Counted from the first letter of the stretch, positions 28,049 through 49,321 are shown. The stretch is DNA of 64,000 nucleotides from a virus (IMGVR_UViG_3300031576_000025:18219-82218), one strand, 5' to 3'. The notes: a model not told the origin generated them from the sequence alone. Numbers and translations: made by a program.

Positions 28049-28091
28049 TTTCGCCCCCCGGCCGGGCCTTGCCCGGCTTGCCTACACCTTC

Positions 28092-28119
28092 AGTATAGCC
28101 TGTTACTGGTAATTGTCAA
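28092..28119 (-). promoter_or_regulatory. Leftward promoter with spacer operator (copy 1)
   Basis: Reading leftward: TTGACA, a 16-base spacer carrying TTACCAGTAA, then TATACT, with GGGTC directly upstream of the -35 box. Identical over the core to the rightward copy at 28475. It drives the 27542-27360-integrase operon. Confidence 0.8.
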
Positions 28120-28188
28120 GACCCAAAAAGGTCCTATGCCGTCCCCGACGGCCCCCGGGCCACGCGGCCCAGGGGCGGGGACCGGCGG

Positions 28189-28356
28189 CTACCCGCCCCC
28201 CCCTTCCTCCACTTCGGCCCCCGCTTCCAGGCGCGGCTTTTCGTCCGTCGTCGCCCGCATCAGCGCCGACTCAAGCAGCGCGGCGTCAATCTTCAGGTAC
28301 GCCGCCAGCGCAACCAGCACCGCCTTGCCTTCCGCTTCCAGCTTCATCTTGTCCAC
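28189..28356 (-). CDS. Very small acidic leftward protein
   Basis: A 55-residue protein starting at GTG 28356 behind GGGGGTCGGAAA; an ATG three codons in is the alternative. It is helical at the start (DKMKLEAEGKAVLVALAAYL), then acidic, and ends in EVEEGGGG. It follows the second leftward operator-bearing promoter (28403-28431) at about 45 bases, so a transcript is well supported. The position between promoters makes it a candidate small regulator, but no DNA-binding motif is visible. Confidence 0.6.
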   Translation of the reverse strand: MDKMKLEAEGKAVLVALAAYLKIDAALLESALMRATTDEKPRLEAGAEVEEGGGG

Positions 28357-28402
28357 TTTCCGACCCCCTGGCCCGACCTTGCCGGGCCTGCCCTACATGG
28401 AA

Positions 28403-28431
28403 AGTATAGACGGATTACTAGCCATTGTCAA
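28403..28431 (-). promoter_or_regulatory. Leftward promoter with spacer operator (copy 2)
   Basis: Reading leftward: GGGTC, TTGACA, a 17-base spacer with GGCTAGTAA, then TATACT. Its -35 box lies only 44 bases from that of the divergent rightward copy, so the two may be controlled together. Confidence 0.8.
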
Positions 28432-28474
28432 GACCCAGGCCGCCGGTCCATAGGACCTACGCAGAAATTGGGCC

Positions 28475-28502
28475 TTGACAATTACCAGTAACAGGCTATA
28501 CT
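28475..28502 (+). promoter_or_regulatory. Rightward promoter with spacer operator (copy 3)
   Basis: GGGCC, TTGACA, a 16-base spacer with TTACCAGTAA, TATACT. An ATG occurs six bases after the -10 box, so a leaderless start is possible. It opens the right arm of early genes. Confidence 0.85.
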
Positions 28503-28553
28503 TCGGGTATGGAAGCGAACGCCGCGGGCAAGGCCAGCGGAAAGGGGGCGAAC

Positions 28554-29819
28554 ATGGACGACGCGAAGAAGCTGGAAACGCTGGGCGAGATGTCGCACAG
28601 CGCGTGGTCGGGCCGCGGCACGTTGCAGCAGTTGGTGGACGAGCTGAAGCGGCAGGCGGCCAGCAAGGTGGATTTCGTGGCCGACACGCGCAGCCTGCGC
28701 GTGGACGCCGTGGCCGCGGTCCCCGCGGTGACGGAGGGCAAGAAGGTTGTCACGGTCGGGAAGCCCGGCAGCCTGCGCTTGGCCCCCGCGGACCTGCGCA
28801 CGGGCGAATGGCTGCCGAAGGCGGGCCTGGGCATCCGGCCCAACGCCTTGGAGCAGCTGGGCCAGGCGCAGAACCCCGGAATCCCCGGCGGCTTCCTAAA
28901 GGACCTGGCGGGACTTCGCCCGGCCCGCGCCGCCGACCTCCTGAACGGGCTCATGGCCGACGGCCCCAGCCGCCGGTTCATCCGCTGCCTGGACGGCAGC
29001 GTGCGCGCCGCCATGTCCGACCGCTACCGCGTGCTGGACAGCCTGGACATCGCCTTTCCCACCCTGGAAGCGGCGCGTTCCGTGGGCGCGGAGGTGCTGG
29101 AAGCCAACCTGTCGGAAACCCACATGCGCCTGAAGCTCATCTGCCGCAACGTGTGGGACGCCGTAGAAATGCGCCGCCAGCAGGGCGGCAGCTGGTACGC
29201 GGGCGGCCTGGGGAACCAGGACTACCTGCGCCACGTGTCCGCCAGGTCCGAGGGCGACCTGCCCGGCGGGCCCGGCACGGTGTACCCCGTCGTCACGGTG
29301 TCCAACAGCGAAACCGGAAACGGCGGCTTCAACGTCCGCATCGGCATCATGATGGGCATTTGCTTCAACCTGGCCACCGTCGAGGACGTGGTGGCGCGGG
29401 TCCACCTGGGCGAACGCCTGGACACCGGCATCTTCAGCGCGCAGACCATGGGCCTGGAGTCCAAGGTCATCCTCGCCAAGGCCCGGGACGCGGTGGTGGC
29501 GGCCTTCAACAAGGACGCCTTCGGCCGCATCGTGGCCGCGGCCCGCAAGGCGCAGGGGGACGCGGTGCAGGCCCCCACGGCGGCGGTGCAGAACGTGGTC
29601 AAGGCGGCCGGGCTGTCCGACAACGCCAAGGACGCCATCCTGGAGCACTTCCTGCGGGATTACGACCAGTCCCGCTTCGGGCTCGCCCAGGCCGTGTCCC
29701 GCCACGCGCAGGACACGCAGGACCCGAACACCGCGGACACGCTGGAGTCCCTGGCCGGGGACCTGCTGCGCGGCGGCAACAAGTATGCGCACGCCGCGCT
29801 GAACGCGGCGGCCAAGTAG
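28554..29819 (+). CDS. DUF932 phage/plasmid-like protein
   Basis: A 421-residue protein (434 if the leaderless ATG 28509 is used; ATG 28554 has AAAGGGGGCGAAC upstream). The middle is typical of DUF932: IRCLDGSVRAAMSDRYRVLD near 175-195, then a beta-rich core with TVSNSETGNGGFNVRIG. The family is widespread in phages, plasmids and ICEs; its biochemical role is not established. It is the first gene of the rightward operon behind a strong promoter, so it is probably made in large amounts early after infection. A GC-rich hairpin follows the stop. Confidence 0.8.
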   Translation: MDDAKKLETLGEMSHSAWSGRGTLQQLVDELKRQAASKVDFVADTRSLRVDAVAAVPAVTEGKKVVTVGKPGSLRLAPADLRTGEWLPKAGLGIRPNALEQLGQAQNPGIPGGFLKDLAGLRPARAADLLNGLMADGPSRRFIRCLDGSVRAAMSDRYRVLDSLDIAFPTLEAARSVGAEVLEANLSETHMRLKLICRNVWDAVEMRRQQGGSWYAGGLGNQDYLRHVSARSEGDLPGGPGTVYPVVTVSNSETGNGGFNVRIGIMMGICFNLATVEDVVARVHLGERLDTGIFSAQTMGLESKVILAKARDAVVAAFNKDAFGRIVAAARKAQGDAVQAPTAAVQNVVKAAGLSDNAKDAILEHFLRDYDQSRFGLAQAVSRHAQDTQDPNTADTLESLAGDLLRGGNKYAHAALNAAAK

Positions 29820-29830
29820 CCGGGCTGGCG

Positions 29831-29856
29831 GCGGGGCCCCTAGAACGGGGCCCCGC
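29831..29856. terminator. Strong hairpin after the DUF932 gene
   Basis: A perfect ten-base stem (GCGGGGCCCC / GGGGCCCCGC) with a six-base loop lies 11 bases after the stop and is flanked by a further short complementary pair. There is no T-run. It may weaken transcription into downstream genes or protect the upstream mRNA. Confidence 0.45.
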
Positions 29857-29919
29857 CTGCACAGCCGGACGCCTGCGACGGGGGGCGGGCGTCCAGCCGG
29901 GCAGGCCCAGGGGGACGAC

Positions 29920-30138
29920 ATGGCGCTCAAGGCGGGTGACGTGGTGCGCAGGGCGGCGCGGGCAGGGGACACCCTGGTGCCGTTGCTGGTGTACGGGCTG
30001 GTGGCGGACGACAGCGGCAGGCTGCGCGCGGAGTTGTTTATTCGCCTGCCGGGAGGCGCGCCCGGGTCCTGGGCCGGGTGCCTGTCGCTGCGCAGACTTC
30101 GGCCCTGGGACACCGCGAAGGACGGGCCGCTGGCATGA
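29920..30138 (+). CDS. Hypothetical 72-aa protein
   Basis: A small beta-rich protein (LKAGDVVRRAARAGDTLVPL, GRLRAELFIRLPG) about 100 bases after the DUF932 gene. It overlaps the next start by four bases. Family not recognised. Confidence 0.5.
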   Translation: MALKAGDVVRRAARAGDTLVPLLVYGLVADDSGRLRAELFIRLPGGAPGSWAGCLSLRRLRPWDTAKDGPLA

Positions 30139-30518
30139 AGCCGCGCACCAGGACATACGGGCCCGGGTGGGACGGGACCAGCAGAACCGAGCATTACGTC
30201 TGGCTGGACCGGGCCGGTCAGTCAACAACCTGGTCCGGCACGCGCTGGGCCATGATTCCTTTGCAGGTACGCCGCGCGCTGGTCCCGGTGCTGCCTATCC
30301 CTAATACGAACCACGGAAAGCGGCTTGTCAAGGTGGTGCTGACCGTGACCGAAGCGCGCGAGCTGCTGGGCGTTGCTGGCAATGGCTACATGGACGGGGA
30401 TTACTACCAGTTGAACAACGAAGGCCACCCGCCGACGGCAGAACAGAAGGCCGCGAACGAAGTATACAGCAGGGCGGAATCCAAGCTGCGCGCGGCCACC
30501 AACGGGACGGCACCATGA
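30135..30518 (+). CDS. Hypothetical 127-aa protein
   Basis: Starts at ATG 30135, overlapping the previous stop. It has an aromatic-rich N-terminus (YGPGWDGTSRTEHYVWLDRA) and a helical C-terminus. No cysteines or known motif. Four-base overlap with the YkgJ-like gene. Confidence 0.55.
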   Translation: MKPRTRTYGPGWDGTSRTEHYVWLDRAGQSTTWSGTRWAMIPLQVRRALVPVLPIPNTNHGKRLVKVVLTVTEARELLGVAGNGYMDGDYYQLNNEGHPPTAEQKAANEVYSRAESKLRAATNGTAP

Positions 30519-30919
30519 GCGCAGCCACGGACGCGCTGGACCGCCTGTACAGCAAGCTGCCGCGGCTGGACTGCCAGGGCAAGTGTCAACAGTCCTGCGG
30601 CCCCATTGCCATGGGCCAGGCCGAACTCGCGCGGCTGACCAAGCGGCTGGGCTACGTGCCGCGGTGGCCGGGCGTGGTGGCGGCCGTGACGCTGGCGGTG
30701 CTGGGGGCGGAAAAGGCCCTGACCTGCCCACTGCTGGATAAGGGCACCGGGCGCTGCACCGTGTACGCCATCCGGCCCATGCTGTGCCGCCTATGGGGCC
30801 TGGTGCGCGCCATGGCGTGCCCATGGGGGTGCGTGCCTACGCGCTGGCTGACGGACGACGAGGCCACGGCGCTGCTGGGCGCGGCCAGGCGGGTGGTGCC
30901 GGACGGGGGCGGGGCGTGA
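30515..30919 (+). CDS. YkgJ-family cysteine-cluster protein
   Basis: A 134-residue protein with the arrangement of YkgJ-type metal-binding proteins: CQGKCQQSCG near residue 20, LTCPLLDKGTGRCTVYAIRP near 70-90, MLCRLWG and ACPWGC. These eight or so Cys bind zinc or an iron-sulphur cluster. The family's role is unclear; some members are linked to modification of proteins or peptides. It is unusual but not unknown in phages. Confidence 0.8.
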   Translation: MSAATDALDRLYSKLPRLDCQGKCQQSCGPIAMGQAELARLTKRLGYVPRWPGVVAAVTLAVLGAEKALTCPLLDKGTGRCTVYAIRPMLCRLWGLVRAMACPWGCVPTRWLTDDEATALLGAARRVVPDGGGA

Positions 30920-31050
30920 CCGCCAAGCCCGAGGTGTCCTGGCTGGCCAGGCTGGTGTGCTGGTGGCGCGGGTGCAGCCGCTACTTTATCGAGCAGCCGG
31001 ACCCTGACCACTGGTGGGTCAGGTGCAGGCGGTGTGGGCGGGTAAGCTGA
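30916..31050 (+). CDS. Small Trp/Cys-rich protein
   Basis: A 44-residue protein starting at GTG 30916, overlapping neighbours on both sides. It has WLARLVCWWRGC and WVRCRRCGRVS, a pair of CxxC-like motifs that may bind zinc. Function unknown. Confidence 0.45.
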   Translation: MTAKPEVSWLARLVCWWRGCSRYFIEQPDPDHWWVRCRRCGRVS

Positions 31051-31247
31051 TGGGGAAACGGCAGCGGCGGCGGCTGAGCGCGAACAGGCTGCGGCGCGGC
31101 CGGGAAGCCGTGCTGGCAGCCATGCGCGCGCCTGAACCACCGGCGGCGGTGAAGCCGGACTGTACGCTGTGCGGCAAGCCAATGGACAGGCGGGGTGAAC
31201 TTCCGTGGCACCGGCCGTGCGGGTTGGAAAACGGGGTGGAATTTTAG
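31050..31247 (+). CDS. Small basic zinc-ribbon-like protein
   Basis: A 65-residue protein with a basic N-terminus (GKRQRRRLSANRLRRGREA) and CTLCGKPMDRRGELPWHRPC, a CxxC-n-HxxC zinc motif. Likely nucleic-acid-binding; partner unknown. Starts in the stop of the preceding gene (TGATG). Confidence 0.55.
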   Translation: MGKRQRRRLSANRLRRGREAVLAAMRAPEPPAAVKPDCTLCGKPMDRRGELPWHRPCGLENGVEF

Positions 31248-31255
31248 GGGGGCGC

Positions 31256-32134
31256 GTGGCAAAGGAACACTTCAAGGATTGGGACCCCAGCGACGGTTCG
31301 CAGGACCGTCTGGAAAAGGTGCTGGACGTGCTGGCCCAGTACGCGGGCATGGACCTGCGCATTACGCTGCGCCAGCTTTTCTACCAGCTGGTATCCAAAA
31401 ACTTCATCGCCAACAAGCAGCGCGAATACAAGAACCTTGGCGAGCTGCTGTCGCGGGCGCGGCTGGCCGGGTTGGTGGACTGGGGGGCCATCGAGGACCG
31501 CATCCGGCAGCCGGACAAGCACGCCGAATGGGCCGACATCCCCGACCTGGTGGAATCTGCCGTGTCGTCCTTCCGCCTGCCGCGCTGGTCTGACCAGGAA
31601 TGCTGCGTGGAACTGTGGTGCGAAAAGGACGCGCTGACCAGCGTGCTGGAACCTATCACGAACGCGCTGCACGTCACCTTGATGGTGAACCGCGGCTACA
31701 GCAGCCAATCGGCCATGTACGAAGCGGCGCAGCGGTGGGCGCGCTCCGCGGACGACGGCAAGAAAAACATCCTGCTGTACCTGGGGGACTTCGACCCGTC
31801 CGGGCAGGACATGGTGCGCGACGTGCGCGACCGTCTGGCCATGTTCGGGCAGGAAGTGGACGTGCGCAAGCTGGCGCTGAACCCCGACCAGGTGGCGCGT
31901 TACGGGCTGCCGCCCAATCCGGCCAAGCTGACGGACAGCCGCGCCGCAGGATTCGTTGCGAAGCACGGCGGCAGCAGCTACGAGGTGGACGCGCTGCCGC
32001 CGGATGTGCTGGCGCAACTGGTGCGCGGGGCAATCGAGGACACCATGGACATGAAGCTGTACGCCGCCTGGCGGGCCCAGGAAAAGGTGCTGAAGGCCAA
32101 GCTGGTGGCGGTGGCGAAGGCTACGAAGTGGTGA
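31256..32134 (+). CDS. Spo11/TopoVI-A-like TOPRIM protein (Mini-A-like)
   Basis: A 292-residue protein starting at GTG behind GGGGGGCGC. It contains a possible 5Y-CAP-like motif LRQLFYQLVS with Tyr43, and a TOPRIM domain with Glu123 in ELWCEKDAL and Asp178/Asp180 in YLGDFDPSG. NRGYSSQSAMYE lies between. Spo11/TopoVI-A proteins use a Tyr and a TOPRIM Mg site to cut DNA; short orphan versions called Mini-A are known from phages and plasmids, mostly untested. It is near recombination and replication genes. No ATPase B-subunit is encoded beside it. Confidence 0.75.
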   Translation: MAKEHFKDWDPSDGSQDRLEKVLDVLAQYAGMDLRITLRQLFYQLVSKNFIANKQREYKNLGELLSRARLAGLVDWGAIEDRIRQPDKHAEWADIPDLVESAVSSFRLPRWSDQECCVELWCEKDALTSVLEPITNALHVTLMVNRGYSSQSAMYEAAQRWARSADDGKKNILLYLGDFDPSGQDMVRDVRDRLAMFGQEVDVRKLALNPDQVARYGLPPNPAKLTDSRAAGFVAKHGGSSYEVDALPPDVLAQLVRGAIEDTMDMKLYAAWRAQEKVLKAKLVAVAKATKW

Positions 32135-32322
32135 CCGACGACGGCGGCGCGCAGCCGCCACGCCAGCGGCGGCACAGCTGGCGCTACGCTAGGGTGTGGG
32201 ACTCCCGCTATGGCTGCCACCGCTTGACGTGGCAGGCCACCTGCCGCGCGTGCGGACTGACCATGTGGCGCAAGCATTTGCAGGGCCGTGGGCCGGGCGA
32301 GCCATGCCCCGGGTGGGTCTAA
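32131..32322 (+). CDS. Small basic protein
   Basis: A 63-residue protein starting at GTG 32131, four-base overlap with the TOPRIM gene. Contains CHRLTWQATCRACGLTMW and is Arg-rich. One CxxC pair with a further Cys suggests a zinc ribbon. It ends the operon before a new promoter at 32353. Confidence 0.5.
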   Translation: MTDDGGAQPPRQRRHSWRYARVWDSRYGCHRLTWQATCRACGLTMWRKHLQGRGPGEPCPGWV

Positions 32323-32352
32323 AGACCCGGGCCGCATGGGTCCTTGTGGGCC

Positions 32353-32380
32353 TTGCGCTTTACTGGTAGAAGGCTAAACT
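32353..32380 (+). promoter_or_regulatory. Promoter with spacer operator variant (copy 6)
   Basis: GGGCC, TTGCGC, a 16-base spacer with TTTACTGGTAG, TAAACT. It is the most diverged promoter of the set but keeps GGGYC and the near-palindromic centre. A short GGGTC-TAAA-GACCC hairpin (32315-32328) lies upstream and may end the preceding operon. Confidence 0.6.
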
Positions 32381-32421
32381 GTGGGTGTGTGGCGGGCAAG
32401 GTCCGCCGGGGGGAAGCTGGA

Positions 32422-32643
32422 ATGGACGCTATTGGCGCGGTGTTCGACGTGGTACGGAAGGACTGGCGCGCGTACTTCGGCGCGCCGGTGCGGTCCATGA
32501 CGCTGCGCGCGGCGGCTTGCGCACGGGAACTGCTGTGCCCCCGGTGCAAGGTGGCCATGTCCGGGCTGACGCACGCCGGGCTGCTGGGCGCGGAATGTCG
32601 CACCTGCCGCAGCGTGTTTATTCAGCCGGTTGGGACGGCCTGA
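32422..32643 (+). CDS. Small zinc-finger protein behind regulated promoter
   Basis: A 73-residue protein starting at ATG 32422 with GGGGGGAAG upstream. The C-terminal half has CPRCKVAMSGL and CRTCRSVF, a four-cysteine zinc ribbon; the N-terminal half is helical. It has its own operator-bearing promoter, so it is a candidate regulator. Function unknown. Confidence 0.6.
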   Translation: MDAIGAVFDVVRKDWRAYFGAPVRSMTLRAAACARELLCPRCKVAMSGLTHAGLLGAECRTCRSVFIQPVGTA

Positions 32644-32650
32644 CGGCGGC

Positions 32651-32678
32651 TTGACTTGGGCTAGTAACCTGCTGTACC
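32651..32678 (+). promoter_or_regulatory. Promoter with spacer operator (copy 7), upstream of HTH gene
   Basis: TTGACT, a 16-base spacer with GGCTAGTAA, TGTACC. The -10 box is weak and the upstream GGGYC is reduced to GGC. If the HTH protein binds YAGTAA sites, this arrangement gives autoregulation. Confidence 0.6.
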
Positions 32679-32718
32679 ATGGGTGCAGCGGGACAACACA
32701 AAGGACGGAGGACTGGCG

Positions 32719-32952
32719 ATGGCAAAGACGGCGAAGCACGAGTACACAACGGCGCAGCGCAAGCGCGGGAAGGAATTTCTGGACTGGCTGAACGGCAAGG
32801 GCTGGACGCAGGATTCCTTCGCCCGCGACACCGGCATAAGCGTGGACACCATCCGCAAGTGGTGCGGCGGCACCGACCCGGACAACATGGCCCGCATCGT
32901 CCTGCGCAACCGCTGCCCCGACTGCCCGCTGCTGGTCCAGAAGGTCGCCTAG
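32719..32952 (+). CDS. Small helix-turn-helix regulator
   Basis: A 77-residue protein starting at ATG 32719 behind GGACGGAGGA; an in-frame GTG at 32683 is less likely. Residues about 21-52 (EFLDWLNGKGWTQDSFARD, then TGISVDTIRKW) form a XRE-like helix-turn-helix. It lies behind one of the seven shared promoters and before a terminator, so it is a single-gene unit. Small HTH proteins of this size act as Cro-like repressors or activators. It is the only clear DNA-binding regulator in the window. The C-terminus includes CPDCPLL, an odd Cys pair for this family. Confidence 0.75.
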   Translation: MAKTAKHEYTTAQRKRGKEFLDWLNGKGWTQDSFARDTGISVDTIRKWCGGTDPDNMARIVLRNRCPDCPLLVQKVA

Positions 32953-32998
32953 ACCAAGGAACCAGTGCCGCAGTCCAGCAGCGCCACCACAGGACCGG

Positions 32999-33038
32999 CG
33001 CGCCCGCGTGACCATAAGCGGGCGCGTACCGTTTTTTT
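32999..33038 (+). terminator. Rho-independent terminator after the HTH gene
   Basis: A nine-base GC stem with a ten-base loop is followed after six bases by seven T's. It is the only textbook intrinsic terminator in the window. It isolates the regulator gene from the recombination/replication operon. Confidence 0.85.
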
Positions 33039-33071
33039 GCCACCCCTGACCAACCAAAGGAGAACCCGACA

Positions 33072-34034
33072 ATGGGCGAAGAACTAGAGACAGCGCCGGA
33101 ACAGCAATTGGAAACGGTGCCCACGGACAAGGCACCCATGACGTTCAACGAGGACCGCATCAACGCGCTGATTCACCTAGCCGAACGCAGCGAAGTGCTG
33201 GGCAAGGCGCTGGACACGCTGCGCGCGTTCGTGCTGAAGCGCGCGCTGCCCGGCGACTGGGTGAAGTTCGCGCAGGAAGGCGGGGACGCCTACCTCGAAA
33301 TGGGCAGCGCCGGGGCCGACCGTATCGCCGCCGTGCTGGGGATTTCCTTCACTGGCTGGTCCAGCGAAAAGGTGCTGGGCAGCGACGACTACGGGGCCAA
33401 GTTCGATTGGTGGTACCGCTGCAACGTCCACTTCCAGGGCCGCACCATCGAAGGCATCGAAGGCCGCTGCGGCAGCCGGGACAAGTTCTTTGGGTTCAGC
33501 CATGGGACCTGGAAAGACCTAAAGGACGTGCGCGAAACGGACATCCGCACGGCCGCCCGCCGCAACGCCATGAAGGAAGGCGTCAAGGTCATGCTGGGCA
33601 TTCGGCGTCTGCCCATGCAGGACGCCATCAAGATGGGCCTGCCCGCGGACGTAATCAAGGGCCACACCTTCGCCAACAAGGCCGACCACGGCGGCACGCA
33701 GGCCGCGGCTGCCGGGGCCGCGGCGGGGTCCGGCGGCGGCAGCGCGGGGACCATGGAAGCCACCGAAGTGGTGGTGGACGTGACGAACAAGACGGGCGGA
33801 ACGCCCACGAAGCCATGGACCAAGTTCTTCATCAGGACCATGGGCGGCACCGTCTACAACACGTTCGATAAGGACTTCGCGCAGGCGGCCAAGGACGTGA
33901 AGGGCACCGGCCAGAAAGTCCTTATCAGCTTCATCGTGAACCAGTACGGCAGCGAGGTCAAGTCGCTGAAGGCCGCGCCGGACAAGCCCGCGGGGGCCCC
34001 GGCCCAGGGCACGCTGCCGGGGACCGAAGCGTGA
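33072..34034 (+). CDS. Rad52-like ssDNA-annealing protein candidate
   Basis: A 320-residue protein behind CAAAGGAGAA. Residues about 30-180 follow a pattern seen in phage Rad52-like proteins: a helix (SEVLGKALDTLRAFVLKRAL), DWVKFAQEGGDAYLEMGSAG, ADRIAAVLGISFTGW, GCGSRDKFFG-like centre, and ETDIRTAARRNAMKEGVKV before LLG-type MLGIRRLP. A Gly/Ala linker (about 215-230) precedes a small beta-rich C-terminal domain. It overlaps by four bases a Cas4-like exonuclease, the normal pairing for phage annealing-nuclease systems. The family assignment rests on pattern resemblance and context. Confidence 0.6.
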   Translation: MGEELETAPEQQLETVPTDKAPMTFNEDRINALIHLAERSEVLGKALDTLRAFVLKRALPGDWVKFAQEGGDAYLEMGSAGADRIAAVLGISFTGWSSEKVLGSDDYGAKFDWWYRCNVHFQGRTIEGIEGRCGSRDKFFGFSHGTWKDLKDVRETDIRTAARRNAMKEGVKVMLGIRRLPMQDAIKMGLPADVIKGHTFANKADHGGTQAAAAGAAAGSGGGSAGTMEATEVVVDVTNKTGGTPTKPWTKFFIRTMGGTVYNTFDKDFAQAAKDVKGTGQKVLISFIVNQYGSEVKSLKAAPDKPAGAPAQGTLPGTEA

Positions 34035-35065: not shown

Positions 35066-35104
35066 CCGCGGTCTTTCGGCGGCCTGGCCGCCAGTGGACC
35101 GCGG
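35066..35104. other. Two-step inverted repeat upstream of replication genes
   Basis: Outer arms CCGCGGTC / GACCGCGG and inner arms GGCGGCC / GGCCGCC form a long hairpin with a single-base inner loop. There is no T-run. It lies between the recombination pair and the replication initiator, so either an attenuator or an origin element is possible. Confidence 0.45.
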
Positions 35105-35155
35105 ACGTGCGGTGGCAGCAAGGCTGCCGCCTTGGACGCAGCAACGGAGGAGTTC

Positions 35156-40050: not shown

Positions 40051-40526
40051 TGAAGGAATTAACGACGACCGGGAAGCTGCGCGCGGCACGCAAAGCCATT
40101 GCGTACCACCTGGCGAATTCCGAAGCCATGCGTTCGGAAATCGCCCGGCTGACGCAGGTTGTGGCGCAGTACGAACTTTCCCTGAAGGTCGCCACGGAAA
40201 GAATGGTTGACGTGGAAAAATCCAATCAGCGTTTCATGGCAGAAACGCAGGCCGCCGGTGTCGTCGCCGCAGCCGCGCGCCATGAATCCGACCTGCAACG
40301 CCGCGCAAAAAACCACGTGGAAATGTTGCTGCGGGAAGAACGGCAGAAGTCAACGCGCTACCAGCTTATGCTGGCGTGCAAGGACTTGGCGTTGGAAAAG
40401 GGGCAGGCCGCCATCCTGGTGGCCGTGACCAACGAGAACGGCTTAGACGGTGCCGACGGGGAACGGGTGGCGGTGCTTATGGACGCTGCGCTGCACGCAG
40501 AAGTTCGCCTGTCGGAAGGGAAGTAG
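40050..40526 (+). CDS. Coiled-coil protein
   Basis: A 158-residue protein made almost entirely of helix with heptad-like leucines (EIARLTQVVAQYELSLKVAT ... LQRRAKNHVEMLLREERQK). It is the last gene before the next operator-bearing promoter. A structural or scaffolding role is likely; partner unknown. Confidence 0.55.
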   Translation: MKELTTTGKLRAARKAIAYHLANSEAMRSEIARLTQVVAQYELSLKVATERMVDVEKSNQRFMAETQAAGVVAAAARHESDLQRRAKNHVEMLLREERQKSTRYQLMLACKDLALEKGQAAILVAVTNENGLDGADGERVAVLMDAALHAEVRLSEGK

Positions 40527-40551
40527 GTCTACCGACCCAACGTCCTGGGCC

Positions 40552-40580
40552 TTGACAGTTACCAGTAATACGCTTATACT
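40552..40580 (+). promoter_or_regulatory. Promoter with spacer operator (copy 4)
   Basis: GGGCC, TTGACA, a 17-base spacer with TTACCAGTAA, TATACT. It drives the operon beginning at 40617. The match to consensus boxes is perfect. Confidence 0.85.
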
Positions 40581-40616
40581 CCTAGTACAGCCGCGTCAAG
40601 GACCGGCGGGGGAAAA

Positions 40617-41598: not shown

Positions 41599-41600
41599 AC

Positions 41601-41768: not shown

Positions 41769-41769
41769 A

Positions 41770-42270
41770 ATGGCAACGACACGGGCGGCGAAGGTGGCGG
41801 CGCAGTACCAGGGCGGGCTTTCGGACTGGGTGGCCAATGACCCGGGATTCATAGCCTACGCGGCGCGGGGGGCGGCCCCGGTCATGGGCTACGTGGGGCA
41901 CCGCTGCCGCCGGAACTGGCTGGACGCCATCGTGGAGGAAGAGCTGCGACGGGCGGGCTGCACGGTGCCCGAAATCGTCGCGTGGCTGACCAGCACCGAC
42001 GGGCGGCACACGGGCGACAGCCTGGAGGACTGCAAGGCCGCGGAAAGGATAGAAACGCGCCGCCTGGTGCGCCGCGGCTTCGGCAACATGAAGGACCGCC
42101 TTCAGGCGTGGGCCCACCCCAGCCACGGCGGCATGTGGTCGGACACCGTGCGCCTGCTGCACCAGCTGTTCCCATGGAAGTACGACACCACGGGGCGGGT
42201 CCGGCCAGAATACGGGGGCACCGGAACGCCCCTGAAGGCCGCCGCGGACTGGGGCATCCGCCATGCGTGA
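41770..42270 (+). CDS. Hypothetical 166-aa protein
   Basis: Helix-rich protein with RRNWLDAIVEEELRRAGCTV and TVRLLHQLFPWKYDTTG. No cysteine pair or known motif. Overlaps the SprT-like gene by eight bases. Confidence 0.5.
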   Translation: MATTRAAKVAAQYQGGLSDWVANDPGFIAYAARGAAPVMGYVGHRCRRNWLDAIVEEELRRAGCTVPEIVAWLTSTDGRHTGDSLEDCKAAERIETRRLVRRGFGNMKDRLQAWAHPSHGGMWSDTVRLLHQLFPWKYDTTGRVRPEYGGTGTPLKAAADWGIRHA

Positions 42271-42976: not shown

Positions 42977-43443
42977 TGGAAACCATGCGGCGCGTCAGGA
43001 AATTGCTGCGGCCGGAAACCGGGGGCGGTGTGCTGCTGTACCTGGAATGCGGGCACACGCTGGCTTCCAACACGCACGGGGCCATGCCCGCGCTGGAAAT
43101 CTTCGCGCTGTCGTTGTCCTGCGCGACCTGCGGAAGCCAAGACGCCAGCTGGGAACGGGGGCGCTTGGACGGGGTGGCGCTGGCGCGCAGCCACGCGGAC
43201 GTGCGCACGCGCGAAGCGGCCAAGGAAATCATCCGCGGCGCGCACAAAACCCTGTTCCCCAAGGAAGGGCTGGGGGTGACCAGGAAGCGGTGGACCAAGG
43301 GCATGTACTTCGGCTACTGGCGCACCATGGTCAACGAAAACGGGGTGGCGGACGTGCCGTACCAGGGGGACCAGGACTTTGTGCCGGTGGGCGCGGACGG
43401 CGTGCGGCGCGCGCGGGCCGCGGGCCAGGGGCCGCTGGCATGA
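42976..43443 (+). CDS. Hypothetical 155-aa protein with CxxC motif
   Basis: ATG 42976 within the previous stop (TAATG). Has LYLECGHTLASNTHGAMPAL and LSCATCGSQDASW: Cys-His then CxxC, a possible zinc site. The C-terminal part has AREAAKEI-type helices and aromatic WTKGMYFGYWRT. Function unknown. Confidence 0.5.
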   Translation: METMRRVRKLLRPETGGGVLLYLECGHTLASNTHGAMPALEIFALSLSCATCGSQDASWERGRLDGVALARSHADVRTREAAKEIIRGAHKTLFPKEGLGVTRKRWTKGMYFGYWRTMVNENGVADVPYQGDQDFVPVGADGVRRARAAGQGPLA

Positions 43444-43781
43444 GCTGGCCGCGTGAGCCGTGGCGCATGGGCTACAGGGACGGGTCCGGCAAGAATGTCC
43501 TGACGGCCAAGGTGGGCCGCAAGCGCACTGGCCTGCTGGTGGCGTGGTCAGGAAAGGGCTGCGGCTGCTGCGCGGGCGACACGAAGCCGATAGAACAGGC
43601 TGCGCTGGAGCGCGCTGCTTCATGCGTCAACGCCTGTGCTGGTCTGGCGGACCCGTGCGCCACCATGAACCAGGCCCGGCACGCGCTGCTGCTGACCAGG
43701 GCACGTGTCAAGCTGGCCTTGGACCCGGTGCTGGCAGAGGCCGTGTACAAGGCGTTGGGTGTGCTGGGGGTGAGCCCGTGA
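43440..43781 (+). CDS. Cys-rich hypothetical 113-aa protein
   Basis: ATG 43440, overlap of four. Contains GKGCGCCAGDTKPIEQAALE and SCVNACAGLADPC, six cysteines in two groups. Probably metal-binding or disulphide-bonded. Function unknown. Confidence 0.5.
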   Translation: MSWPREPWRMGYRDGSGKNVLTAKVGRKRTGLLVAWSGKGCGCCAGDTKPIEQAALERAASCVNACAGLADPCATMNQARHALLLTRARVKLALDPVLAEAVYKALGVLGVSP

Positions 43782-44470
43782 AGCTGTACCACGGGACGGC
43801 CGCGGCGAACCTGGGGGCTGTTCGCGCCCGCGGCCTGGTGCCCCGTGGACGGTTCAACAAGCGCAGCAATTGGGAACACACCGCGCGCAGCCGCGCCGGG
43901 CACGTCTACCTGACCACGGCCTATCCGCTTTACTTTGCCCTGTGCGCCAGCGGTGACGAAAACGCGCTGGTGGTGGAAGTGGACACCGACAGGCTGGACC
44001 CGCGGCGGATGTACCCGGACGAGGATTTCTTGGCGCACGTTCTGGCGCAGCAGGCTGTGGCCAGCAAGGCGCTGCACCGGCCGGTCCTAAATAAGCTGAC
44101 GCAGACGGTCAACCTGGAAGCCAACCGCGACCTGTGGGGAAAATCGCTTGAGCTGCTGGGGACGTGCAGCTACTTCGGCCATGTGCCGCCAGCGGCAATC
44201 ACGCGCTACGCCACCGTGGACGTAATGGCGCGCCCCAGCCTGGCCATGCTGTGCGTGGACCCCACTATCACGCTGGCAAACTACCGCTTCTGTGGCTGGA
44301 AGTACCGGCAGCTGGTGGCCTGGATTTTTGGGGACGCGCCGGACCTGCCGGGCGCGGTCCCGCCGGAACACATGGCGCAGCTTGGCGAACTGCCGGGCAT
44401 GGCCGAAGCCGCTGCGGCCCTGGCTGCGGAATCCGTGGACCGCCGCGGCGTGGCGGTGCTTCTGCCGTGA
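43778..44470 (+). CDS. ADP-ribosyltransferase-like protein
   Basis: A 230-residue protein starting at GTG 43778. The N-terminus KLYHGTAAANLGAVRARGLV, then NWEHTARSRAGHVYLTTAYP and VVEVDTDRLDPRRMYPDEDF, matches the ART-fold pattern: H-G-T, then Y(L)T, then a late acidic residue. Phage ARTs modify host RNA polymerase, ribosomes or defence proteins, and some remove or add ADP-ribose on RNA; the substrate here is unknown. Tpt1-like 2'-phosphotransferases share the fold and are the main alternative. Confidence 0.6.
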   Translation: MKLYHGTAAANLGAVRARGLVPRGRFNKRSNWEHTARSRAGHVYLTTAYPLYFALCASGDENALVVEVDTDRLDPRRMYPDEDFLAHVLAQQAVASKALHRPVLNKLTQTVNLEANRDLWGKSLELLGTCSYFGHVPPAAITRYATVDVMARPSLAMLCVDPTITLANYRFCGWKYRQLVAWIFGDAPDLPGAVPPEHMAQLGELPGMAEAAAALAAESVDRRGVAVLLP

Positions 44471-44505
44471 TAATTTAGGCCCGGCAAGACCGGGCGGGGG
44501 GACGT

Positions 44506-44886
44506 ATGGACAACGTAAAGACGGGCCAGCAAACGCTGGGCAGGGCGCTGGCCAAGGTGCGCGCCGCCGGGCTTAAGGCTGGCCTTGACGCCGACAAGCT
44601 GAACGCTGCGCTGCTGGCCGCCACCAACAGCAGGGCCCTGCCCACGCTGAAGCGCCTGCCTTCTGAAGTGGCCATGCGCGCCTGCGCGCTGCTGCCCAAT
44701 GCCGGTGACGCGGCCATCCTGGTGCGCCTGAAGAACGGCGGGGTCCGGGTCTACACCAAGGCCAGCCACCGCACCCTGGTGGAATCCGGGCGGCGCGCGG
44801 GCAAGGCGCTCGGCGGCAATCGCAACGCGGCCGGGAAGGGCCCCACGGAAACGGCTGGGCATATCCCCGCCAGTGGCGCGGCATGA
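44506..44886 (+). CDS. Hypothetical 126-aa protein preceding AAA+ ATPase
   Basis: ATG behind GGCGGGGGGACGT. It is helical and Ala-rich (TLGRALAKVRAAGLKAGLDA) with a beta hairpin (AAILVRLKNGGVRVYTKA). Four-base overlap with the ATPase suggests they are made together. Confidence 0.5.
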   Translation: MDNVKTGQQTLGRALAKVRAAGLKAGLDADKLNAALLAATNSRALPTLKRLPSEVAMRACALLPNAGDAAILVRLKNGGVRVYTKASHRTLVESGRRAGKALGGNRNAAGKGPTETAGHIPASGAA

Positions 44887-46589
44887 ACATTAACCTGCAC
44901 CCTGCGACAATCAAGCTGCTGAAGGGCAAGGGCATCAAGCAAATCGAAAGGCACCTGGATTTCCACAACGACGACGTGCTGGAATTCGACCTGGACAAGC
45001 TGACGGCCAAGGAACTTTCGGCGGTGAAGGACGCCCTTGGAAAGACGGCGGCCGGGCCGGACAGCACCGAACAGCGCAGCGCCGTCCGGTCCATTGGAAT
45101 CATCGCCGCCGTGGCCGACGCCGACAACGCGCCGGGGGACAAGAAGGTTGCCAAGCTGGAACTGCTGGCGACCCTGCTGCGGTCCTATATCAGGACAGCC
45201 AATGGCTACCGGGTCTACAAGAAGGCCGACGACGACGACGCTTTCTTTTTGCCGCATATCGTCACCAAGGTGACCTACCACCCCCCGGAACGCAGCCGCA
45301 GCGGCGACACGTCGCCAGCCCACGTGTTAATGCAATTGGCCCACTACAGAAATGGGTCCGTCTGCAAAGACACCCACGCCTTCTATTCCCACCACACGCG
45401 CCAAAAAACGGTTGCGCAGATTTTCCACGCCGCCGGTTACGTCCTGGCTAACGACGACCTGGACAAGACCTATGAAAACGACCTGAAGCTGTTTCGGGAA
45501 ACCGAGCACCTGGTCGGTGTCCAGTTCTTGGCGGCCGGTATCGCCAGCACAGGGCGGCACCGCTGGGACCAGTTCAGTCTGCTGGTAGACGGCCAGCGGT
45601 CGCGCGCAGTGGTTGAAGAACGCACCGACGACAACGGGAAAAAGACCAAGGAAGCGGCCGTGGTGGACATGGCGTGGTGGAACAACGCCAAGGGCGTGCG
45701 CGACGAGGACGACCTGGACGACGACCTGGACGACGCGGGGACGACTGACGACGACGGGGTGCCGCCGCTGCACCCCTACGTCTACTGCTTCCTGCTTGCC
45801 AGGCACGAAACCGCCGACGTTCACGTGCGCAACATGAACCGCTACGTGTACGACAAGAAAATGGGCGACAAGCTGGTGCTGCCGCAGGAAACCAAGCAGC
45901 TTGTAGAACTGCTGCTGGAGGACAGCGCCGCAAAATTTCAGGACATAATCAGAGGCAAGGCCGGTGGTTCAATAATCCTTTGCACCGGGGCCCCGGGCAC
46001 CGGCAAGACGCTGACGGCGGAAGTCTACGCCGAAGTAATGGAACGGCCGTTGTACGTGGTCCAATCGTCGCAGCTTGGGACCGAACCCGAAGGGCTGGAA
46101 AAGCACCTGCGCGACGTGCTGGACCGCGCGACCAGGTGGGGGGCTATCCTGCTGATTGACGAAGCGGACGTTTACATTCACGAACGCGGCGCGGACGTGA
46201 ACCAAAACGCAATCGTCGGGGTTTTCCTTCGCGTGCTGGAATACTACAAGGGCATCCTGTTCCTAACCACCAACCGCGAATGCATCGTGGACGACGCCAT
46301 AGAATCGCGCTGCACCGCGCAGGTGGCCTACGGCGTGCCGTCCGTGCCCGACCAGGTGCGGATATGGAAGCTGCTGCGCGACCTATCGAAGGTGGCGGTG
46401 TCGGACGCCACGATAGAACAGGTGGCGAAGGCGAACCCGCGGCTGTCGGGGCGCGACGTGAAGAACCTGCTGAAGCTGGCGCAGCTGGTGTCCCTGCGCC
46501 GTGGCAAGCCGGTGGACGCCAAGACGATAGAACACGTAATGAAGTTCAAGCCGACACGGACGGCCGGTGGGCCGGGGGGCCAGGAATGA
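44883..46589 (+). CDS. AAA+ ATPase with long N-terminal domain
   Basis: A 568-residue protein. The first 270 residues form an unknown domain followed by a very acidic linker (274-291). The AAA+ core has Walker A GAPGTGKT at 369-376, Walker B ILLIDEAD at 422-429, sensor 1 LTTNR at 461-465 and ESR arginine finger at 474-476, then a lid with LSGRDVKNLLKLA. It resembles classical FtsH/proteasome/BCS1-like AAA ATPases that unfold proteins or remodel complexes. The next gene overlaps by four bases and may be a partner or substrate. Confidence 0.85.
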   Translation: MNINLHPATIKLLKGKGIKQIERHLDFHNDDVLEFDLDKLTAKELSAVKDALGKTAAGPDSTEQRSAVRSIGIIAAVADADNAPGDKKVAKLELLATLLRSYIRTANGYRVYKKADDDDAFFLPHIVTKVTYHPPERSRSGDTSPAHVLMQLAHYRNGSVCKDTHAFYSHHTRQKTVAQIFHAAGYVLANDDLDKTYENDLKLFRETEHLVGVQFLAAGIASTGRHRWDQFSLLVDGQRSRAVVEERTDDNGKKTKEAAVVDMAWWNNAKGVRDEDDLDDDLDDAGTTDDDGVPPLHPYVYCFLLARHETADVHVRNMNRYVYDKKMGDKLVLPQETKQLVELLLEDSAAKFQDIIRGKAGGSIILCTGAPGTGKTLTAEVYAEVMERPLYVVQSSQLGTEPEGLEKHLRDVLDRATRWGAILLIDEADVYIHERGADVNQNAIVGVFLRVLEYYKGILFLTTNRECIVDDAIESRCTAQVAYGVPSVPDQVRIWKLLRDLSKVAVSDATIEQVAKANPRLSGRDVKNLLKLAQLVSLRRGKPVDAKTIEHVMKFKPTRTAGGPGGQE

Positions 46590-47155
46590 AACTGCGCGCG
46601 GTCATAGAAATTCCGTTGCTGCCGAACGTGTGGCAACCAAAGGGCAGCAGCCGGGACCTGAAACAGGACCGGCGCGAGCTTGAGGGCAAGCTGCCAGTTG
46701 GCGTGCTGGTCAAGTCGGTGCAGCACGTGACCGACAAGACCGACATGCGCGCAGCCTTCAAGCGGCTGCTGTCGTGGCACACCGAAAGCACGCCGCTGCC
46801 GTTTTTGCCAAAGCACCGGCGCGCGTCCGGGGCCATGGCCGGTGACGAAAAGGCCCCGTTCGTGTCCGAAACATTCCTGTACCCGCTGCTGGGCAAGGAC
46901 GACGCGCGCACGCTGCTGTACAAGCTGCGTGAAGTCATGCGGGTGGCCGGGGTGGACATGGACGACCTGGAGCGCGAGGTGGTGGCGGAACAGCGGGTGG
47001 CACTGGAAGCGGCGGCCAAGCTGTCGGCCGTCCAAGAAGGGCGGCGCAAGTTCTGGCACCAGTACGCGAAGGGCAAGGGCTGGGACGCGGACGAACTGAC
47101 CAGCGCACAATCGCGGGAAATCAGGGTGGCGCGCCGCGCCGCGGGTATCCCGTGA
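46586..47155 (+). CDS. Hypothetical 189-aa protein, partner of AAA+ ATPase
   Basis: ATG 46586, overlap of four with the ATPase gene. It has a beta start (KLRAVIEIPLLPNVWQPKGS), a central LPVGVLVKSVQHVTDKTDMR and a long helical C-terminus with basic residues. Coupling suggests a working partner of the ATPase. No family recognised. Confidence 0.5.
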   Translation: MKLRAVIEIPLLPNVWQPKGSSRDLKQDRRELEGKLPVGVLVKSVQHVTDKTDMRAAFKRLLSWHTESTPLPFLPKHRRASGAMAGDEKAPFVSETFLYPLLGKDDARTLLYKLREVMRVAGVDMDDLEREVVAEQRVALEAAAKLSAVQEGRRKFWHQYAKGKGWDADELTSAQSREIRVARRAAGIP

Positions 47156-47547
47156 CGGTGGGCGCGCTGGTGGCTGCGGCCAAAGCCGCGGTGGACCAGT
47201 ACGCGATGGTGGGCCTGACCGGCCGCCCGGCCTTCAACGTAAATCTGTACCGGGCGTGCAAGGGCAGACGCGCGCGGATAGCGCCCGGCCTGGTCGGCAC
47301 CGTCCTATCGTGGGGCGACGGCAGCAAGGCCGTGCCCACGCTGGTGTCCATGGACGCCAAGGCCGTGCTGTCCTGGCACGGCCGCCTGGAAAAGACCGCG
47401 GGCCTGCGGCGGGCGGCTGGGCAGCACGTGTGGGACAAGGTGGGCGACGGCACGCACGAGTGCCGGACGTGCGGCGCTGAAGCAGCGGGCTACTTTCCAG
47501 AGGACACGGTGCCGGGGCCATGCCCCGGTCCACAGGGGGACAGATGA
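47152..47547 (+). CDS. Hypothetical 131-aa protein
   Basis: GTG-type short gene with GRPAFNVNLYRACKGRRARI and a CRTCGAEAAG pair late in the sequence. Coupled on both sides. Possible zinc-binding protein; function unknown. Confidence 0.5.
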   Translation: MTVGALVAAAKAAVDQYAMVGLTGRPAFNVNLYRACKGRRARIAPGLVGTVLSWGDGSKAVPTLVSMDAKAVLSWHGRLEKTAGLRRAAGQHVWDKVGDGTHECRTCGAEAAGYFPEDTVPGPCPGPQGDR

Positions 47548-48005
47548 AAAACGAGCCAGGCAAAACCTATCTCTGCCCGTGCTGCTGGGCGGCGCACAAG
47601 GCGGGCGGCTGGTACATGAGCTCGGACTACGTGCAGGTGCCGGACGTGGCGGACTGTACGCTGCACCCGGACCTGTCCAGCTGGCGCGTGGTGCGGACCC
47701 TGAAAAGCATCCGCCACTGGTCCATGCAGCCGGGCGAGTACCGGCACCCAAATTTCCAAGGGGTGCGGCTGGTGCTGGAAGGCGGCCACGTCCACCGGCG
47801 GACGGCCGAGGCTATTCTGTTCGATTACGAAAAGCCCTACCTGGACCTGCTGGTGGCCGAAGGCTACCTGGACGCGCACGACGGCACGCCGCGCACCTTG
47901 ACGGTGACGGAAAAGGGCGAGCTGCGGGTCCATGCTGCGCTACAGGAAGCCATGGAAAAGGAGCAGGCGAAGCTGGCAGCCAAGCGGGCAGGGGGCGCAG
48001 CGTGA
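47544..48005 (+). CDS. Hypothetical 153-aa protein
   Basis: ATG 47544. N-terminal CPCCWAAHKAGGWYM gives a CxxC pair; the C-terminal half is helical and charged, with PRTLTVTEKGELRVHAALQ resembling a winged-helix wing and final helix. It might be a small DNA-binding regulator. Overlaps the next gene. Confidence 0.5.
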   Translation: MKNEPGKTYLCPCCWAAHKAGGWYMSSDYVQVPDVADCTLHPDLSSWRVVRTLKSIRHWSMQPGEYRHPNFQGVRLVLEGGHVHRRTAEAILFDYEKPYLDLLVAEGYLDAHDGTPRTLTVTEKGELRVHAALQEAMEKEQAKLAAKRAGGAA

Positions 48006-48184
48006 TGGCCTTCATGCCGCTGCGGTGCTGGGCCCTGCTGGTGCTGGTGGCCCTGGTCACGTCAAAGGCCATGAACGACCAGCCGAACAGGGCCAAGTGC
48101 TTTGCCTCCGCCGTCCTTGGGTTTTACGGCCTAGGGTTCCCAGCCCTTCTGTTCGTATTCGTGGACATGGGCTTGCTGCCGTGA
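48005..48184 (+). CDS. Small membrane protein
   Basis: A 59-residue protein (or 60 from GTG 48002) with hydrophobic segments at about 7-20 and 34-55 (FYGLGFPALLFVFVDMG). It overlaps the previous stop. Two-helix membrane protein of unknown role. Confidence 0.5.
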   Translation: MAFMPLRCWALLVLVALVTSKAMNDQPNRAKCFASAVLGFYGLGFPALLFVFVDMGLLP

Positions 48185-48363
48185 AGCTGCACCGCCGCCG
48201 CTGCACGACCTGTGGCCAGCACCAGCTGCGCGTCCTGCACGCGCGGCTATGCGACAAGCGCATCATGCGGACGCGGCCCACGCGGCTGGGGGCCGTCCTG
48301 ACCTGGGGCCCGTGCCGCGGCAAGCTCATGTCCCTGCCCGCGCTGCACAAGGGGGACCTGTGA
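48181..48363 (+). CDS. Small basic Cys protein
   Basis: A 60-residue GTG-started protein with RRRCTTCGQHQLRVLHARLC and a further Cys. CxxC with two later Cys suggests a zinc ribbon. Coupled to both neighbours. Confidence 0.45.
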   Translation: MKLHRRRCTTCGQHQLRVLHARLCDKRIMRTRPTRLGAVLTWGPCRGKLMSLPALHKGDL

Positions 48364-48656
48364 AACGGGGCACGCCGCCGGAATGGCACCAGTTCAACAG
48401 GGCGCTTGGCAACGGCCAGGAACGCCCGCCAATCAACAAGGCCGTGCTGGTCTACGTCGCCAGCATGCAGCCAGGGCTTCCAGAAGCCATAGCCGTGGGC
48501 TACCGCAAGGACGCGGCCGGGGACGCGGGGTACCCGTATTTCGTGGTGCCTGGACACGGCGGCGAAGTCATGGCGTGGTGCGACTGCCTGCCGGTTAATG
48601 ATATTCCACAGCTTTGGGCTGGGGCCAGAAAGATTGCTGTGCAAGGGGGAACGTAA
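48360..48656 (+). CDS. Hypothetical 98-aa protein
   Basis: GTG 48360. Has NKAVLVYVASMQPGLPEAIA and YFVVPGHGGEVMAWCDCLP, a pattern that recalls DUF551-like phage proteins ending in a W.xxLP motif. Function unknown. Confidence 0.5.
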   Translation: MKRGTPPEWHQFNRALGNGQERPPINKAVLVYVASMQPGLPEAIAVGYRKDAAGDAGYPYFVVPGHGGEVMAWCDCLPVNDIPQLWAGARKIAVQGGT

Positions 48657-48907
48657 TGGCGAAATTCAGCGTGGTGGTTGAAGTTTGTGTGAGGTTCCAG
48701 CGCACCCTGGTGGTGCAGGCCAAGGACGCGCAGGCCGCCTGCGGACGTGCCGTGTTCGCGGCCATGAAGCTGGGCCCGCACGAACGCCGGGGTGTGGTGC
48801 TGGCCCCGGGCTGGTGCGGGTTCACCCCGAATGGGAATGACTACATGGTGGTAGACGCGCAGGCCGCCGACAACGACACGCCAGTGACGCTGCGGGTCAA
48901 GCGGTGA
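48656..48907 (+). CDS. Hypothetical 83-aa protein
   Basis: ATG 48656 behind AAGGGGGAACGTA. Beta-alpha-beta pattern (KFSVVVEVCVRFQRTLVVQA, DAQAACGRAVFAAMK). No known motif. Confidence 0.5.
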   Translation: MAKFSVVVEVCVRFQRTLVVQAKDAQAACGRAVFAAMKLGPHERRGVVLAPGWCGFTPNGNDYMVVDAQAADNDTPVTLRVKR

Positions 48908-49227
48908 CCCCGGCGCAGCTTGCCGTTGCGGAATCGGCCTGCCAGGTCCACCGGCCTCCGGTGGCGGACTGCGTGGCGTGCGCGCTGGCCGCTGCGCTGC
49001 GCGCCCAGGCCGGGCTGGCCGCGCAGCTGGCGAATGAGCTGCGGGCGCACGTAAAACTGGGCCCGTACCACATTTGCGACCTTGGCCCAGCCAGGCCGCC
49101 GGTGCGTAGTGGGCAGTTCAATCCCGTCCCCATAACCTACATCATCAATTGCCCTGGGTGTGCGCGGCACGCAAAGGACACCAAGGCTATGGCGGCCTGG
49201 GACGAATCAAGGCCGCTGGCTGGGTAG
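48904..49227 (+). CDS. Hypothetical 107-aa protein
   Basis: GTG 48904. An Ala-rich helix (VACALAAALRAQAGLAAQLA) and CPGCARHAKDTKAMAAWDE at the end. Resembles Lar-like restriction-alleviation helpers in its closing CPxC...A...W motif, a weak resemblance only. Last gene before a new promoter. Confidence 0.5.
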   Translation: MTPAQLAVAESACQVHRPPVADCVACALAAALRAQAGLAAQLANELRAHVKLGPYHICDLGPARPPVRSGQFNPVPITYIINCPGCARHAKDTKAMAAWDESRPLAG

Positions 49228-49252
49228 GCCAAATGGCCCACATGCCTGGGTC

Positions 49253-49281
49253 TTGCAAGCGGCTAGTAAAACGCTTATACT
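49253..49281 (+). promoter_or_regulatory. Promoter with spacer operator (copy 5)
   Basis: GGGTC, TTGCAA, a 17-base spacer with GGCTAGTAA, TATACT. It starts the operon at 49322. Its last eight bases before and in the -10 match the copy at 40552 (ACGCTTATACTCC type). Confidence 0.8.
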
Positions 49282-49321
49282 CCAGATATCGCTGGGGCAA
49301 GGCCCCGGCCTGGGGGCGGGA

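Follow-up and report, generated by a model that had tools for sequence, protein, structure and literature searches.

A promoter family with an operator-like spacer site and a covarying leader hairpin in a predicted temperate-type siphophage

Introduction

In phage lambda, dyad operators lie over the early promoters PL and PR near the integrase gene, with three tandem operators at two promoters. In the cluster A mycobacteriophage L5, one motif is repeated across the genome and an early promoter is included among its sites (PMC6550527, PMC9283540). Cluster K mycobacteriophages possess a repeated element, SAS, before the start codons of non-structural genes, and approximately half of the copies have inverted repeats directly upstream (PMC3203893). 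RNA hairpins are located in early-transcript leaders as the put sites of HK022 and the nut sites of lambdoid phages (PMC9378689), and the PeSL of T4-like phages combines an early promoter with a stem-loop in a unit that recurs between genes (cited in PMC4503421). Here a family of promoters is described in which an operator-like element occupies a fixed place in the spacer, and in which most of the leaders carry a predicted hairpin with an invariant loop. The family was examined in a window of 64,000 nucleotides that comprises bases 18219-82218 (G+C 66%) of the 82,218-base virus record IMGVR_UViG_3300031576_000025. Coordinates are window positions unless marked as record positions.

The arrangement resembles that of lambda in that candidate operators, some of them dyads, lie in divergent early promoters near the integrase gene, with a gene for a small Cro/C1-like helix-turn-helix (HTH) protein nearby. 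It differs in that each of eight dispersed promoters has a single short site, always in the same place. As in L5, a single motif recurs over the phage genome with an early promoter among its sites. However, the sites here are confined to promoters and are partly palindromic, whereas the L5 site is an asymmetric 13-bp sequence to which a monomer binds, and most copies are located off promoters. The placement of a repeated element just upstream of start codons is shared with SAS and ESAS. SAS is a 13-bp sequence and ESAS an inverted repeat of 17 bp in which the arms are conserved, whereas here the arms covary, CAAGG is constant and the element usually follows a promoter; the SAS sequence GGGATAGGAGCCC is absent from the leader sequences and their alignment. 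An RNA hairpin in early leaders is common to put and nut, but the hairpin here is single, has a stem of 7-8 bp, adjoins the Shine-Dalgarno sequence and also is found before genes within operons. PeSL likewise combines an early promoter and a stem-loop but is, by the title of its report, a promoter-terminator, whereas the hairpin here lies past the promoter, by the start codon, and is not followed by a T-run. Overall, the hairpin matches neither SAS/ESAS nor put/nut in the testable defining features.

Results

All seven promoters proposed in an initial annotation of the window (28092, 28403, 28475, 32353, 32651, 40552 and 49253) are present, with those at 28092 and 28403 located on the minus strand (Table 1). 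The GGGYC block that was claimed to stand directly before the -35 box does so in six of the seven, the exception being GCGGC at 32651. YAGTAA lies exactly five bases from the -35 hexamer also in six, and TGGTAG takes its place at that spacing in 32353. The cores at 28092 on the minus strand and at 28475 on the plus strand are identical from CTTGACA through TATACT, as noted previously. TTACNNGTAA is found four times in the genome compared to 0.1 occurrences expected, and every copy is within these promoters. As YAGTAA by itself is not rare (14 occurrences versus ~8 expected), the signal resides in the promoter-linked arrangement.

A position weight matrix (PWM) was built from the seven promoters and run across the whole 82,218-bp record, with Markov-simulated sequence as the control. 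The seven promoters scored 22-35 bits, a single extra copy scored 25.7 bits and the next best match reached 15.5 bits, compared to a maximum of 17.5 bits in the simulated sequence. As the eighth copy was absent from the PWM training set, it provides out-of-sample confirmation of the family. When the sigma-70 promoters of the genome were ranked on -35 and -10 boxes only, the five best (11-12/12) all carried AGTAA six bases past the -35 hexamer, at the offset seen throughout the family. No family copies were detected away from promoters in the 82-kb record. Thus, equal frequency of the motif off promoters, which the initial annotation had considered fatal to an operator, is not what the whole-record scan revealed: the eight copies are all at promoters.

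The distance of the spacer element from the -35 hexamer is constant, whereas that to the -10 box is 5 or 6 nt, which places the element with the -35 side of the promoter. Among the eight sites, the dyad is perfect (TTACNNGTAA) in four, is TTACTGGTAG in one, and is represented by the right half only in three. The GGGYC block deviates in one or two of the eight copies, and a purine-T-purine triplet at the predicted transcription start, seven bases past the -10 box, is common to seven of the eight promoters. The leader of the eighth promoter is devoid of the CAAGG hairpin described below. An ATG near the predicted start at this promoter opens a 73-aa frame (MGPVCCACLFRVFFF..., record 2348-2608), and the mRNA may be leaderless. 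The sequence GTAGGYC-N4/5-GRCC is located upstream of three family promoters (40524-40537, 49225-49238 and, on the minus strand, upstream of 28436); the TAGG within it stands 28 bases before the -35 hexamer, and in two of the three the upstream reading frame ends at this TAG. Enrichment of inverted repeats within 35 nt upstream of the GGGYC block was marginal across the eight promoters (p ~0.04).

Only one relative with synteny sufficient for comparison was found, a viral contig of 36.9 kb that was matched via the capsid protein. Identity is 72% for capsid, 32-70% for other structural proteins and 45% for integrase. A capsid search of viral contigs using a two-row alignment revealed no further relatives, nor did a search of 399 genomes drawn from a single phylum, which was made with no positive control. 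The leftward promoter upstream of the integrase gene in the relative, directed towards that gene like the leftward family promoters here, reads GGCCTTGCAAT-CTTCGCGAAG-TCCCTATACC. The central CTTCGCGAAG, a perfect 10-bp palindrome with no second copy in the 36.9 kb, is situated at the exact offset of TTACCAGTAA; by simple calculation (4^-5) the chance of a perfect 10-bp palindrome at one given position is ~1 in a thousand. As the position is retained and the letters are changed, the pattern is the one that operators from distinct immunity groups should show and suits a polymerase contact poorly. The promoter of the relative fits an operator with changing specificity. Of the conservation in related phages that the initial annotation had viewed as decisive, this one relative shows, at one promoter, the spacer position with the palindrome CTTCGCGAAG but not the YAGTAA sequence, which is absent there.

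The initial annotation stopped at the promoters and missed a hairpin in the leaders: the conserved unit runs past the transcription start and is a composite DNA/RNA cassette. In six of the eight leaders, CAAGG stands between complementary arms ~10-20 nt past the predicted start and folds as a 7-8 bp stem with an AAG loop closed by C-G. The order in these leaders is promoter, CAAGG hairpin, G-run Shine-Dalgarno sequence and start codon, with the 3' end of the hairpin 10-13 bases from the start codon in most. G-runs act as the Shine-Dalgarno sequence in many genes of this phage. Across the whole record, 53 of the 123 predicted gene starts have a run of at least five G within the preceding 20 bases, more than have an AGGA/GAGG-type Shine-Dalgarno sequence.

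The arms differ among the six leader hairpins, yet standard pairs fill 90% of the pair cells, and five of the seven pairs are changed on both sides. Sliding the arms by a single base makes the covariation score collapse. The score was equalled by one of 500 shuffles, a figure that is not a strict probability since the hairpins derive from one genome and share ancestry. As the stems are changed on both sides around an unchanged loop, the leader hairpin bears the mark of a selected structured RNA. Four of the eight leaders contain a CAAGG hairpin of six or more contiguous pairs compared to 0.1% of random 50-base stretches (p ~1e-10). Single-sequence folding energies are unremarkable at such a G+C content (z +0.2 to -2.1), and it is thus the loop and the covariation that carry the case for the hairpin. 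When leaders were folded with early coding sequence, five of the six still formed the hairpin, the start codon was mostly open and the G-run was largely paired in two; the hairpin at 28521..28541 folded more weakly once the coding sequence was added. A search of Rfam at gathering score yielded only a tRNA in the window and nothing credible at 27900-28700.

Two copies are outside the training set of a covariance model built from the six leader hairpins. That at 44477-44497 is within an operon without a family promoter upstream, and its score is near that of the weakest training member. The second, at 35111..35131, has a longer stem and is positioned 24 nt before the replication-initiation-like gene 35156, also without a family promoter; its score is weak, as matches in coding sequence also arise at 15.6 bits. 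The start ATGGAC is found in five of the eight hairpin-bearing genes and in 11 of 115 others (p = 0.0009).

Further inverted repeats were noted in the region. A similar 8-bp hairpin with the loop CAT replacing AAG precedes the start of gene 47544 (47511-47530, plus strand) and may be remotely related to the leader hairpins. Just upstream of the CAAGG hairpin at 35111 lies a nested inverted repeat (35069-35110, plus strand) in which CCGCGGTC...GACCGCGG flank GGCGGC-CTG-GCCGCC. The loop of the leader hairpin together with its 3' arm (CAAGGNCC) is nearly the reverse complement of the GGGYCTTG promoter block, for example at 40547-40605, which may reflect chance or a shared recognition sequence.

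The product of the gene at 32719 is a plausible candidate for the regulator of the family. The protein matches phrog_4779 (1.8e-5) and, below the cut-off, Pfam HTH_3 (0.0012), and its structural model, of modest confidence, is similar to small XRE proteins, none of the matches falling below E = 0.001. The promoter of this gene, P32651, possesses the spacer element and no hairpin, as might befit a self-controlled regulator gene. As the 27542 and 28189 proteins have no recognisable family, another regulator is possible. The predicted fold of the 27542 protein was dropped as a clue to identity because confidence was too low. A C1-like repressor with a cleavage domain was not identified, and no known antiterminator gene was found.

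The window includes genes for terminase, portal, major capsid, tape-measure, tyrosine integrase, topoisomerase-like, O-like and DnaC-like proteins and a DNA methyltransferase. The DNA of the regulatory region has no match among phage records, and matches of the terminase, portal, capsid and first-gene proteins to known phages are all <60% identity. The phage is poorly sampled and appears to be a tailed siphophage of temperate type. The integrase gene is directed leftward, P28431 and P28475 diverge next to the integrase operon on the minus and plus strands, respectively, and the topoisomerase-like, O-like and DnaC-like genes are to the right. With the integrase leftward, divergent promoters and replication genes rightward, this order fits a switch.

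Table 1. Positions of family promoters, leader hairpins and associated genes, with the hairpin scores (bits) from the covariance model.
Feature	Position	Strand	Description
Tyrosine integrase	26485..27363	-	phrog_1, 5e-41; final gene in leftward operon
First gene behind P28119	27542..28048	-	No family, no phage match, low-confidence fold
Leader hairpin, gene 27542	28059..28079	-	GCCGGG-CAAGG-CCCGGC; 28.6 bits, training member
P28119	28092..28124	-	GGGTC-TTGACA-ATTACCAGTAACAGGC-TATACT; dyad TTACCAGTAA at 28103-28112
First gene behind P28431	28189..28356	-	55 aa; no recognisable family
Leader hairpin, gene 28189	28369..28389	-	GGCCCGG-CAAGG-UCGGGCC; 26.5 bits, training member
P28431	28403..28436	-	GGGTC-TTGACA-ATGGCTAGTAATCCGTC-TATACT; half-conserved site TGGCTAGTAA at 28415-28424
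P28475, divergent to P28431	28470..28502	+	GGGCC-TTGACA-ATTACCAGTAACAGGC-TATACT; dyad 28482-28491
Leader hairpin, gene 28554	28521..28541	+	CAAGG, one internal G-A mismatch; then GGGGG and ATGGAC at 28554; 24.0 bits, training member
First gene behind P28475	28554..29819	+	phrog_1362; start moved from 28509 to ATG after GGGGG
P32353	32348..32380	+	GGGCC-TTGCGC-TTTACTGGTAGAAGGC-TAAACT; dyad-like site 32360-32369
Leader hairpin, gene 32422	32389..32409	+	GGCGGG-CAAGG-UCCGCC; 26.2 bits, training member
P32651, upstream of HTH gene	32646..32678	+	GCGGC-TTGACT-TGGGCTAGTAACCTGC-TGTACC; leader without CAAGG hairpin
HTH protein, Cro/C1 type, behind P32651	32719..32952	+	77 aa; candidate regulator
Non-training hairpin, gene 35156	35111..35131	+	GGTGGCAG-CAAGG-CTGCCGCC; 15.6 bits
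P40552	40547..40580	+	GGGCC-TTGACA-GTTACCAGTAATACGCT-TATACT; dyad 40559-40568
Leader hairpin, gene 40617	40589..40609	+	CAAGG, one bulged C; 20.7 bits, training member
Non-training hairpin, gene 44506	44477..44497	+	GCCCGG-CAAGA-CCGGGC; then GGGGGG and ATGGAC; 20.1 bits
P49253	49248..49281	+	GGGTC-TTGCAA-GCGGCTAGTAAAACGCT-TATACT; half-conserved site 49260-49269
Leader hairpin, gene 49322	49290..49310	+	GCUGGGG-CAAGG-CCCCGGC; 23.7 bits, training member
Eighth promoter	record 2348, outside window	+	CTGGCTTGACAATTACCAGTAACAGGCTATAAT, 25.7 bits (PWM); -10 TATAAT

Discussion

The promoter family probably constitutes the early regulon of a temperate-type siphophage, with copies of one cassette, an operator in the spacer, a single regulator and an additional RNA-level control exerted through the hairpin. 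The cassette would consist of the GGGYC block, a sigma-70 promoter and an operator of ~10 bp, either TTACCAGTAA or a half-conserved form, tied to the -35 box in the spacer; six of the eight cassettes add the CAAGG-loop hairpin, the G-run Shine-Dalgarno sequence and a start codon, often within ATGGAC. We infer that a phage DNA-binding regulator, most plausibly the 32719 protein, would occupy the spacer site, including that in its own promoter, and when bound would block RNA polymerase at all family promoters together. Binding would be weaker where one half of the site is degenerate, leading to graded control. The hairpin would act on the mRNA, most likely in translation initiation or 5'-end protection, with the invariant loop recognised by a protein or RNA partner.

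Several points weigh against this proposal. The perfect TTACNNGTAA dyad is present in only four of the eight sites. Three copies have a long common core and may be recent duplicates, such that the eight are not fully independent. The HTH matches of the 32719 protein are weak, and binding to the spacer site and repression rest on inference. The relative lends thin support, as it contributes one promoter in which the palindrome was spotted post hoc; neither YAGTAA nor the CAAGG hairpin was found in any relative, and the contig of the relative does not include a rightward early region. In promoter spacers among 2.9 million viral contigs, CYAGTAA was found in 59 stretches at the family offset, in 115 two bases away and in 11 when reversed. 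As matches two bases off exceed those at the offset, CYAGTAA is without position-specific conservation across phages, and the idea that YAGTAA is conserved among phages was dropped. Scans for promoters with exact TTACCAGTAA in viral contigs and for promoters in genome contigs yielded scattered contigs of lower GC content without the leader hairpin.

A more elaborate version of the cassette has two layers, with a spacer operator that is swappable to set immunity specificity and a CAAGG loop that is bound by a phage RNA-binding factor which co-ordinates translation or stability of the first genes. This version is offered tentatively.

The hairpin might instead be a nut/put-like site that lets polymerase pass terminators, a proposal that concerns the hairpin only and is compatible with an operator in the spacer. 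The hairpins are near early promoters on both strands with an invariant loop and a variable stem, and putL of HK022 is just downstream of PL (PMC9378689). Nevertheless, antitermination is rather unlikely here: put RNAs are ~70 nt with two stem-loops, compared to one small hairpin in this phage, and terminator-like sites are not enriched (24 and 18 versus 18.4 and 19.0 expected from shuffled sequence). Furthermore, the copy at 44477 and, more weakly, that at 35111 lack a family promoter, are situated within an operon and immediately precede a start codon. These copies tie the hairpin to translation starts no less than to promoters, which makes a role in translation or mRNA stability more likely and antitermination less so.

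The spacer element might alternatively be part of the core promoter, read by polymerase with the host sigma factor or a phage sigma-like factor, in which case the family would reflect a strong-promoter consensus with no repressor. The five sigma-70 promoters that rank best on -35 and -10 boxes all carry the element; the distance of the element to the -35 box is fixed; and in spacers of unrelated viral contigs CYAGTAA outnumbers its reverse by 59 to 11 stretches, which were not dereplicated. However, the element is not bound to the offset in those contigs, with the 115 matches two bases away, and a dyad is unexpected for a polymerase contact. The relative, moreover, retains the -35 block GGCCTTGCAA and the -10 box, yet CTTCGCGAAG replaces TTACCAGTAA between them. 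A purely core-promoter role is therefore judged unlikely.

Recent copying of the cassette round the genome, with the shared spacer reflecting descent without function, would explain why TTGACAATTACCAGTAACAGGCTATA is common to P28119, P28475 and the eighth promoter, and why shared features span GGGYC to ATGGAC. In the remaining copies most non-core positions have changed but the GTAA side is retained, and the stems are changed on both sides around an unchanged loop. As diverged copies keep both the GTAA side and the loop, selection is indicated instead of recency, and duplication alone is an improbable explanation.

A cluster-A-type repressor network that also halts elongation at many genomic sites is the least credible alternative, even though the strand GGTAATTGTCAAG is similar to the L5 site, GGTGGMTGTCAAG, an L5 operator also sits in a promoter, and loose GGTNATTGTCAAG matches number 10 in the window versus 2.3 in shuffles, partly the promoters themselves. 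The likeness is mostly to the -35 box, the invariant columns here include C-nn-GTA and not ACC, and there are zero off-promoter copies compared to 20-30 sites in cluster A, most of which are not promoter-associated (PMC6550527). Of the reading put forward in the initial annotation, a coordinated promoter family with an operator-like spacer site is supported, given the confinement of the motif to promoters, its fixed position and the different palindrome at that position in the relative, whereas the analogy with L5 stoperators is not, as off-promoter copies are absent and the site is partly palindromic.

The cassette makes the early regulon legible in a lineage of which hardly any kin have been sequenced and predicts the DNA sites that would set immunity, the native operator forms at issue being TTACCAGTAA (P28475) and GGCTAGTAA (P49253). 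The relative suggests that the letters of the operator change while its position in the spacer stays, which would provide a route to studying the origin of phage immunity groups. A loop that stays constant while its stem changes freely suggests a phage RNA-binding partner or a translation device of a kind not yet described.

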